From NCBI GenBank assembly GCA_024363285.1, contig AP024710.1, forward strand, positions 2,264,001 through 2,328,000: a stretch of DNA of 64,000 nucleotides, given 5' to 3'. Positions 53,679-56,616 of the stretch are shown one piece after another; position 1 is the stretch's first letter, and each line of letters opens with the position of its first letter. This DNA comes from Leptolinea sp. HRD-7. Its GTDB lineage: Bacteria > Chloroflexota > Anaerolineae > Anaerolineales > Anaerolineaceae. Position numbers and translations under genes: made by a program. The notes beneath the pieces are model-generated. The model saw nothing but the letters and a program-made list of their open reading frames with translations, searched no databases and had not been told where the DNA came from.

Positions 53679-53711
53679 AAAAAAGTCCTCGCCATCAGGG
53701 GCGAAGGGACT
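53679..53711 (-). terminator. T-box regulated terminator
   Basis: AGTCC/GGACT and CGCC/GGCG arms form the stem (53711-53684), followed by a T-run of six on the - strand. It competes with the antiterminator formed by the T-box sequence at 53730-53716. Confidence 0.85.
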
Positions 53712-53913
53712 TACTCCGTGGTACCACCCTGCTTGCCCGGTAAACCGGACCGCTTTGGGCGCTGTAACGGGCGAACCCGCCGCTGGCTGAATTTCTTCAC
53801 CGCGGCCGCGTACCATTTCGGGTACGACGGGCGAGTTCGGTCTTCGCGCTCCGTAGCGCCTGCCGGACTCACACCTGATGCCGGCTCTCTGACGGATGAC
53901 GTACTACTCCCGT
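53679..53913 (-). promoter_or_regulatory. Leucine-specific T-box leader of leuS
   Basis: Read on the - strand. The bottom of stem I pairs ACGGG (53913-53909) with CCCGT (53831-53827). The AGTA loop motif follows the first arm, and the specifier CTC followed by G (53835-53832) sits right before the second, so the codon is Leu CUC. AGAGAGCCGG and a matching CCGGC give the upper stem. The T-box AGGGTGGTACCACGG is at 53730-53716; its TGGT pairs with the ACCA end of an uncharged tRNA with discriminator A, as in tRNA-Leu. A terminator ends the leader. It starts only 10 bases after the tRNA-Ala 3' end. Confidence 0.92.
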
Positions 53914-53923
53914 TTTATGTGTG

Positions 53924-54218: not shown

Positions 54219-54262
54219 AAAAAGGACCTGTTCAAATTGTCCTTAATGAACAGTTCCTTTTT
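54219..54262. terminator. Two-way terminator hairpin with no gene to end
   Basis: A 16-base stem with one mismatch (54219-54234 against 54247-54262), 12-base loop, A-run left and T-run right. Neither neighbour points at it: the tRNAs run leftward away from it and the propeller gene runs rightward away. A rival stem AAGGAC/GTCCTT (54222-54227 with 54239-54244) shares bases with it. Confidence 0.75.
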
Positions 54263-54300
54263 TCGCCGTCCCCTAACGGCAGGAGTAATTAAATCCTCTG
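54219..54300 (-). ncRNA. Candidate small RNA
   Basis: On the - strand, the orphan terminator would close a short transcript holding a GCCGT/ACGGC hairpin (about 54264-54282) and an AGGA/TCCT pair. A perfect TTGACA lies upstream at 54333-54328, but the -10 is poor (TAAAAA only 14 bases on), so the promoter is unsure. No known RNA family is recognised. Confidence 0.3.
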
Positions 54301-54480
54301 CTGTTGATTTTTATCTGATTTTTATCCTGTCAATGTTCATATATAGTAAAATTGCTAATCGCAACGATGCTTTGCTGTTTTTCACTGAAGCGGGGAAACG
54401 TACCTGACGAAATTCTTAAATCAGTATAAAGAATTGCGAAAAATAAAACGGCAAAAAAACTGCAAATATCTGGCAAATAT

Positions 54481-56616
54481 ATGAACCTAAATATAAACAT
54501 GGAAACCTTTACAATTTCATACGATATTGTTTATCCAATATTAAAAAAGTTTTATGACGATAGTGTGTTAGAAGCTTCAGAATTACAGAATCTGGCGCTT
54601 GTTCAGATTTGTCGTAAAAACAATCCACTATACTCAACCAGTCAAGCCATCCGTTTTGTTTTTACCGATGTTCTGAAAACTTTACAAAATGGTTCTGAAA
54701 AACAGGAATTTTATGCTTACATATTAAAAGGCCGATTCTGGGATGAATATTCCATAACGAAAATGATCACATCTGACCGCCTAAATCAGATGCCGCAAAG
54801 AACATTTTCAAATGAGCAAAAAAAGGCAATCAATGCTTTTTGCCAGATTCTTATTTCGCAGGAACAAAAATGTCGTAAAGAATACCCGGAATATAGTGGC
54901 TTTTCTGCTATTCAAAAAAATCCTGTTTTGTCCTCTGATGAAAAGCATAATCAGAATAACGGGGTTACATTCTCTTCAACAAAAAAAATGGAGAAGAGTA
55001 TCAGAATACTACTGGCAACAATTGGTGTTCTGGTACTCCTGGTAATGATACTTTCGTTAAAATCGATTAGCGATATCAAATCAATTGCCATTATTCCCAC
55101 TCCGACTTCTATAGAACAAAAAAACGCTGCTGACTCTGCTAAAGCTACTGCGCTCCCCATTTTTTGCCAGGAGAAAGAAATATCTCCTGTTGTAGTGACG
55201 GATCCTCAGTTTATGCGCAGCCAGGGATTGATCACATTTGACAAAGTATCAAACCCGGGAATTATCAATAATAAGGTGCGTTCCTTATACGCTGTGCAGA
55301 ATGGGTTATGGATAGGGTACTTCGCCACTGACCAGGATTCAGCCAGCGGTGTTAGTTTTTATGACCGGGAGCACAAAAGACTGTTAAATTGCAGCCAGAT
55401 AGGTGTTACAGACGGTCAAAATGTCAACGATATTGTGATAGACCACGCTGATTTAGTCTGGGTGGGAATGGAGAAGGGGGGAATTGCCCGTTACGACGGA
55501 AAAACCTGGCGGTTATACACAACGGCTGATGGGTTGCCTTCAGAATGGATATACGGTCTTTATGTTGATGATGAAAATTACATCTGGGCCGCCACATTTA
55601 AAGGTGTGGCCAAATTTGACGGAAATCAATGGCATACCATTTATTCAGTGGAAAATGGAAGCCTGGTAAATGATCGTGTGCACGTTATTACCATGGATAG
55701 CGAAAAGAATATCTGGATCGGCTATATTGAAAATGGTGTCAGTGTGTATCACCCATCCAGTAAAACATGGGAGCATTTTTCCGCTGCCGAAAATGGACTT
55801 TCTGGTAATAAAATTCGCAATATTATGGTACAGAATTCAGCGGATAGTGGTGTAGATACTGTTTGGATTGCTACATTCGACAATGGGTTAAGTCAGTATA
55901 AAAATGGGGTATGGGCGGCTTTTACAGAGAAAGATGGAATTCCATCAAATCGATTACTTGATGTAGCTTTGGATAAGTATCACCGTGTGTGGGTAGCGAC
56001 CGAAAAAGGTACAGCCTTCCTGCAAAATAACACATGGAAAACATACGACAACCTTGAAACCTTTAACCTGGCTTTTGGGATTAATTGTGCGGGAAAAACA
56101 AATTATTGTATGGATGATGAAAATGTGTTTACTGGAACCAGTAAGCTAGGTTTTACTCATTCGAAAATTCCTCTCCCTGATGCCGGATTAGAAGTTCTCT
56201 CGGTTTGTTTTGTCAGGGAAGACAAATCTGAAGTATGTCCCGACCTCATAAAGGATCTGGCAAACAACACTGTCATCGCGAATTATCCAGAGACCTTAAA
56301 ATCTGGAGACAAATTCTTCATGAAAGTAACGGTTTCCCCGTTCAAGCCTTATCAATTACTTGAGAGCCGTGGTGATCAATTGATCAATATTGACGCGGAT
56401 GAAACCCGATTATTTGGCACTTTTCCTCGAATTCCGGTCTCAGGTTCAGTTGACTCTGGTCAAAATTTCACATTTTTTGATACGAATAATCCGTTCGTTG
56501 TACCTGCTTTGGAGGATACTACTTCTAACACATTCACCAGCACCTGGCGAATGTGGATGCATACGAGACTGATCGGGCCGAACATCCGGATTTCATTTAC
56601 AGTCAAACCCGGTTGA
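54481..56616 (+). CDS. Membrane protein: HTH-like cytosolic domain, one helix, outside Reg_prop propeller
   Basis: 711 residues. A helical N-terminal domain (1-165) contains LKGRFWDEYSITKMITSDRL, then MPQRTFSNEQKKAINAF, a pattern like the sigma-4-type helix-turn-helix regions of Chloroflexota regulators (inferred by eye). One membrane helix (174-194) is followed outside by a two-component-regulator propeller (about 255-540): repeats such as LWIGYFATD, VWVGMEKGG, IWAATFKG, IWIGYIENG, VWIATFDNG and VWVATEKGT. A beta-sandwich ends the protein. This could be a ToxR-like sensor-regulator. No ribosome site is seen; ATG 54499 is an alternative start. Confidence 0.75.
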   Translation: MNLNINMETFTISYDIVYPILKKFYDDSVLEASELQNLALVQICRKNNPLYSTSQAIRFVFTDVLKTLQNGSEKQEFYAYILKGRFWDEYSITKMITSDRLNQMPQRTFSNEQKKAINAFCQILISQEQKCRKEYPEYSGFSAIQKNPVLSSDEKHNQNNGVTFSSTKKMEKSIRILLATIGVLVLLVMILSLKSISDIKSIAIIPTPTSIEQKNAADSAKATALPIFCQEKEISPVVVTDPQFMRSQGLITFDKVSNPGIINNKVRSLYAVQNGLWIGYFATDQDSASGVSFYDREHKRLLNCSQIGVTDGQNVNDIVIDHADLVWVGMEKGGIARYDGKTWRLYTTADGLPSEWIYGLYVDDENYIWAATFKGVAKFDGNQWHTIYSVENGSLVNDRVHVITMDSEKNIWIGYIENGVSVYHPSSKTWEHFSAAENGLSGNKIRNIMVQNSADSGVDTVWIATFDNGLSQYKNGVWAAFTEKDGIPSNRLLDVALDKYHRVWVATEKGTAFLQNNTWKTYDNLETFNLAFGINCAGKTNYCMDDENVFTGTSKLGFTHSKIPLPDAGLEVLSVCFVREDKSEVCPDLIKDLANNTVIANYPETLKSGDKFFMKVTVSPFKPYQLLESRGDQLINIDADETRLFGTFPRIPVSGSVDSGQNFTFFDTNNPFVVPALEDTTSNTFTSTWRMWMHTRLIGPNIRISFTVKPG

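Follow-up and report, generated by a model that had tools for sequence, protein, structure and literature searches.

The gene at 54481–56616 of the window (the whole 64,000-nt stretch of the Leptolinea sp. HRD-7 genome analysed here) encodes, with a probability that we put at about 80%, a membrane-bound one-component transcription regulator that most likely regulates itself. DNA binding, ligand and sensing are inferred, and no experiment has been done. A propeller outside the cell would bind a ligand, and the signal would cross through the single membrane helix to the module in the cytosol, whose sigma-4-like HTH rests on homology shown at the level of the family. This module may then bind head-to-tail to tandem 11-bp repeats on the same face of the DNA, as judged from the covariation of repeats and recognition helices and without binding data. 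The likely primary site in this species is a GCAAA triple between the promoter and the start codon of the gene itself, which makes self-regulation the most likely outcome. Since the triple lies between the presumed transcription start (judged from the possible –10 element AGTATA) and the start codon, its effect on the gene would probably be repression, a sign that is inferred from position only.

Table 1. Window coordinates of the regulator gene, the parts of its product and the upstream elements
Feature	Position	Strand	Remarks
Hairpin flanked by A-rich and T-rich stretches, resembling a terminator on either strand	54222..54263		Counterparts in the other two Leptolinea genomes
AGTATA, possible –10 element (inferred)	54423..54428	+	In all three Leptolinea upstream regions
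Candidate operator, three GCAAA at 54451, 54462, 54473 (11-bp spacing)	54450..54477	+	No binding data
Whole gene	54481..56616	+	711 aa: HTH module, membrane helix, Reg_prop propeller, beta-rich tail
N-terminal output module, residues 1–142	54481..54906	+	Member of a Chloroflexota-wide family; hhalign to STAND-type domains
Sigma-4-like HTH part, residues ~77–130	54709..54870	+	Recognition helix RTFSNEQKKAI; alignment, ortholog identity
Single membrane helix, residues 173–191	54997..55053	+	Hydropathy
Reg_prop propeller, residues 241–565	55201..56175	+	Seven blade motifs
Conserved beta-rich tail, residues 566–711	56176..56613	+	No Pfam match

The gene and the layout of its product

The gene is real: a 711-aa frame stays open over its whole length on the forward strand, and orthologues exist in two of the three other Leptolinea genomes (L. 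tardivitalis YMTK-2 and one Leptolinea MAG). No orthologue was found in the fourth Leptolinea genome (G002). Identity to the two orthologues is 64 and 59% in the N-terminal domain, 70 and 67% in its HTH-like part, 62 and 57% in the propeller and 64 and 61% in the tail, while the linker, the membrane helix and the stretch past it retain just 22–29%. Both ends of the protein thus appear to be under constraint, and conserved domains around a variable spacer are the pattern expected of a two-domain signalling protein. Few parts of the protein are as conserved as the stretch of the recognition helix.

The preliminary description had proposed a DNA-binding-like domain in the cytosol and a Reg_prop propeller outside, connected by one membrane helix, and this remains the best reading. 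Only one hydrophobic helix is present (KD 2.67), and four relatives likewise have one membrane helix each. Reg_prop is the sole Pfam family above cut-off (E = 4.1e–14, three stretches), and the blade motifs are predicted to form one seven-bladed propeller. A model of the ectodomain has a mean pLDDT of 58.8, with propeller blocks mostly at 64–89; its closest structures are ectodomains of Bacteroides hybrid two-component systems, followed by PorZ. The placement of the propeller outside and of the N-terminal domain in the cytosol is inferred from homology. The same order of domains occurs in the two Leptolinea orthologues and in another family (G946, L095), again as module, membrane helix and propeller.

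Pfam and further domain searches revealed no kinase, HisKA, HATPase or receiver domain in the protein, and domain searches found no match to sigma region 2 anywhere in it. Neither the protein nor the module family has a Pfam match to an OmpR/PhoB-type winged helix, and the combination of an OmpR-type HTH with a BTA domain was not matched in either by Pfam or NCBIfam. Viral contigs held no relatives of the full window protein or of the receiver-type and 7TM-type modules.

A Chloroflexota-wide module with a sigma-4-like HTH

Taken alone, the N-terminal domain of the window protein returns only noise from Pfam, NCBIfam and the PDB. A profile built from the three Leptolinea orthologues picked up distant relatives of it, and a profile of 13 sequences has matches in 189 of 400 Chloroflexota genomes (E ≤ 0.001). 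This count is an upper bound for the module, as it includes plain ECF sigma factors that match in the HTH part only (e.g. L067). The window trio aligns with the STAND-type domains at an hhalign score of 111.9 over 114 columns (shuffled maximum 17.4), and the homology takes in the HTH half as well as the helical half at the N-terminus.

The module was found in several architectures. Many relatives carry it N-terminally on NB-ARC/STAND ATPases; others have it on AAA-TPR proteins or ahead of a stretch resembling HATPase plus receiver (read by eye, without a domain scan), and it also occurs C-terminally, after 7TM and GAF domains (L064 in the same genome). It is joined through a membrane helix to a propeller in the window protein, its two orthologues and G946, and to a LamG-like ectodomain in three genomes (G208, G405 and G1026). 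In every architecture seen the module sits on a sensor or a switch, as expected of an output. No paper on this domain or layout was found in the open literature with the terms used.

Two of these groups deserve a separate remark. The own-genome 7TM-GAF protein with a C-terminal module (L064:2334–4244, reverse strand; G000:C1 3545333–3547243) has counterparts in many genomes, often as one match per genome, and the recognition helix of this type is conserved (SESD[LF]YRKQR). Proteins that combine an N-terminal module with a worn HATPase-like stretch and a receiver-like C-terminus (L074, L075, L068, L069 and L077) are present as several paralogues within one genome in some lineages (G597, G618, G576).

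Profile comparison places the module as a sigma-70-region-4-like HTH at the level of the family. A 35-member alignment of it has an ECF sigma factor as its best match in the PDB (E = 0.0015). Sigma70_r4 is matched by 11 of the 35 members (best 9.2e–7), the NCBIfam sigma70-ECF model by 20 and DUF1492 by 21. The window protein's own genome supplied ten ECF sigma factors, with whose region 4 we also compared subfamilies of the module, using 40 column-shuffled versions of each subfamily as a background. The STAND subfamily scored 48.5 (shuffled maximum 13.1), the receiver-type subfamily 49.8 (15.6) and the 7TM subfamily 32.0 (17.1). The window trio alone scored 11.1 against sigma-4, below its shuffled maximum of 15.9, which is noise, and seven membrane-type sequences gave no clear match (17.3 versus a shuffled maximum of 17.0). 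The trio is linked to sigma-4 only via its STAND and receiver relatives, so its HTH rests on transitive homology alone. AlphaFold, run with three sequences, did not give a usable model of residues 1–165 (pLDDT 46.8), and Foldseek on this model returned nothing at E ≤ 0.001. Interferon-gamma structures appeared in the PDB search with E-values similar to that of the ECF match; they were two-piece matches to one helix.

The earlier guess of a sigma-4-like HTH is supported by this family homology and, independently, by the operator-like triple repeat that tracks the domain (see below). The HTH-like pattern noted earlier is real but exceeds that of most relatives by three residues; in the membrane-type group three additional residues stand ahead of the recognition helix.

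A conserved GCAAA triple in front of the gene

Comparison of the three Leptolinea upstream regions shows that the triple ends 3 bp ahead of the start codon. All 15 bases of the GCAAA cores are identical across the three genomes, versus 5 of 12 in the spacers. The exact triple with N6 spacers occurs once in each of the three Leptolinea genomes that have the gene, always just before it, and is absent from the fourth (G002). Across 330 genomes of the order the exact pattern has nine matches, and a backward control has six. Three of the nine directly precede membrane-type module genes (G000, G003 and G405); the other six precede no module gene. Six membrane-type genes are present in this set: the pattern is exact in three, degenerate in G208 and G1026 and absent in G946. 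The GCAAA pattern is also carried by a STAND gene of G221 with a recognition helix likewise of the QKKA type; 25 genomes near G221 contained no other GCAAA-type genes.

Among the first 27 module genes, all seven of the QKKA type score high for the pattern (0–2 of 300 resamplings as good), and the best of the remaining 20 is equalled by 5 of 300. A Fisher test of this contrast (7/7 versus 1/20) is not relied on, since the grouping was made after the motif had been seen. It should be noted that the GCAAA pattern, the period of 11 and the helix grouping were all spotted by eye before testing and are post hoc points. With two mismatches allowed, matches to the GCAAA pattern hardly outnumber those of the backward control, and no wider regulon is visible.

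Triples with a period of 11 bp precede other module genes

Other module genes have 11-bp triples of their own upstream, as judged against first-order Markov resamplings, which were also used for the first 27 genes above and for the resampled sequences below. The statistic was fixed as three 6-mers with at least five of six columns identical (strict cut); a looser cut required at least four. We kept 73 of 87 loci; the others were dropped because their upstream DNA was too short, their module was C-terminal, their score was weak or the domain was a duplicate. At the strict cut a period-11 triple is found in 13 of the 73 genes, the window gene (54451/54462/54473) being one that meets the criterion, and any other period from 7 to 23 gives 0–3. 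None of 77 control genes has such a triple (Fisher test, P-value = 4.7e–5), and resampled sequences gave 0.135 genes on average and at most two in any of 200 runs. The 33 exploratory genes were separated from 40 later ones; these 40, outside the discovery set, include six with a period-11 triple and at most one at any other period. Counted at the looser cut in 100-nt steps from the start codon outward, triples occur in 22/73, 4/73, 4/73, 0/72, 2/71 and 0/71 upstream regions, and the enrichment is confined to the last 100 nt upstream of module genes.

Related genes count more than once in the figure of 13 out of 73. After clustering at 50% identity, period 11 is found in 10 of 50 clusters and other periods from 8 to 15 in at most three. 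Clustering at 40% leaves 29 clusters and only a narrow lead (four for period 11, three for period 9 and two for period 10). Most genes with an N-terminal module (60 of 73) lack a triple at the strict cut, and the period-11 triple is common but not universal in them. The 7TM-type genes show next to none in 20 upstream regions (0/20 at five or more identical columns, 1/20 at four or more). Perfect triples, with all six columns identical at 11-bp spacing, are seen upstream of L155 (TGACGT) and L177 (TGGCCG).

The repeated word follows the recognition helix. Grouped by eye, QKKA helices go with TGCAAA, REQ-type helices with AGTC-like words and RQxRR helices with GGCC. Over 224 pairs with domain identity below 50%, helix similarity and word similarity are correlated (Mantel test, r = 0.343), a value reached in none of 2000 permutations. 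The permutation test controls for phylogeny only partly.

Alternative explanations

The domain might bind DNA without the triples being its autoregulatory site; they could be bound by something else or be other promoter or leader elements. The Leptolinea repeats do extend to within 3 bp of the start codon, a region of translation signals, and in the right frame they might serve as codons. Against this, 11 is not a multiple of three, a stop codon stands directly ahead of the repeats in one orthologue, control genes are devoid of such repeats, and the words vary among module genes and follow the helix. We therefore regard this explanation as doubtful. More improbable still is an adaptor role, in which the N-terminal domain would recruit another protein, similar to the effector-associated domains of STAND ATPases, and would resemble an HTH by ancestry only. 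Adaptor domains are common on STAND ATPases, many relatives of the module sit N-terminally on just such proteins, and the membrane-type subgroup lacks detectable direct similarity to sigma-4. Against an adaptor stand the strong conservation of the recognition-helix stretch and the operator-like repeats that follow the helix type across architectures.

The closest solved ectodomains belong to Bacteroides hybrid two-component systems, and the protein could be imagined as a degenerate hybrid regulator that works through a separate kinase. This we consider very remote from the data, as the HisKA, HATPase and receiver domains are missing and no kinase was noticed by eye among the listed surrounding ORFs. 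A self-regulating one-component regulator remains the preferred interpretation.

Relation to known regulators

The preliminary description had called the protein ToxR-like. The comparison holds for layout and inferred mode of action and fails for the fold: like the ToxR/CadC-type transmembrane regulators (TTRs), the protein has one membrane helix and no kinase, with a probable DNA-binding domain at the N-terminus, inferred to be cytosolic, and a sensor inferred to lie outside, but those proteins use a winged helix, for which no Pfam match exists here, and the window protein belongs to a sigma-4-like family. One of the titles cited in PMC8546550 states a direct-repeat target for ToxR. The proteins of the TTR survey PMC10269533 were found with Pfam DNA-binding models; unlike them, the N-terminal domain of the window protein matches no such model.

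The operator design resembles that of SARPs. According to PMC5930380, the main operator of PimR consists of three heptamers in direct repeat, set 11 bp apart by 4-bp spacers, and is bound cooperatively by monomers. AfsR is described in PMC10936776 as a DNA-binding domain followed by a nucleotide-binding domain and TPR, with 11-bp repeats; similar partners and the 11-bp design recur in the module-STAND proteins. SARPs differ in having an OmpR-type winged helix and a BTA domain; the module finds its matches among sigma-4 models and has none to families of that type. ECF sigma factors share region 4 homology with the module family; the module proteins differ in lacking region 2 and being fused to sensors. 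An ECF-like HTH as an output domain of signalling proteins has been described together with TRADD-N proteins (PMC8195603). Compared with the outputs covered there, the module is without TRADD-N, has its own N-terminal helical half and exists in a membrane-bound form.

The Bacteroides hybrid systems BT4663, BT3049 and BT4673 share the Reg_prop-type ectodomain and are the best structural matches. Their chains are of about 740 residues, versus about 516 here, with one predicted seven-bladed propeller and no kinase. Going by a title, the related BT4663 ectodomain senses a glycan, heparin. Reg_prop proteins carrying a LuxR-type HTH also exist in Bacteroidota, so that joining a propeller to an HTH may not be a novelty in itself.

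A broader interpretation, in which we have moderate confidence, is that Chloroflexota turned sigma region 4 into a reused module that reads three same-face 11-bp repeats, has an operator at its own gene with co-evolution of word and helix, and is mounted on STAND ATPases, receiver proteins and membrane sensors. It would be convergent with SARP and ToxR on another fold. Transmembrane transcription regulators as a kind and ECF-like HTH outputs in other signalling proteins are already known. As far as the searched literature goes, three things are new: the use of the module as an output throughout the phylum, the form of it that is membrane-bound and coupled to a propeller, and triple operators that co-vary with the helix. 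If the broader interpretation is true, an unrecognised class of regulators operates in a large and poorly studied phylum; its targets can be deduced from sequence, and it includes a membrane-bound class that searches with known DNA-binding models would miss. Many module genes would then hold an operator beside the helix that reads it, and such natural protein/DNA pairs could be used to work out how region-4-type helices choose DNA.

Surroundings of the gene

On the other strand upstream lie leuS (named by eye) and two tRNA-Ala genes, and a convergent LytR-CpsA-Psr-like gene (named by eye) follows downstream. These neighbours give no hint to the ligand, the sign of regulation or other targets. 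The terminator-like hairpin reported earlier upstream of the gene is genuine: it folds at –15.6 kcal/mol and has an equivalent at the corresponding position in each of the other two Leptolinea genomes. It (54222–54290 with the following stretch) is located between the tRNA-Ala genes and the regulator, with nothing obvious to terminate; CCGTCCCCTAACGG comes after it, and the whole is similar in the three Leptolinea genomes. The small RNA suggested for this region found no support, the only Rfam matches of note being two tRNAs and a T-box. The T-box leader (53694–53918, reverse strand; E = 1.8e–11, 56.7 bits, below the Rfam cut-off of 93) is just upstream of leuS and directly after the two tRNA-Ala genes on the same strand. 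Elsewhere in this genome (G000:C1, about 2464250–2467700; L025, L027, L030) there is a second, larger Reg_prop protein with an open frame of 1072 aa and counterparts in G001 and G003.
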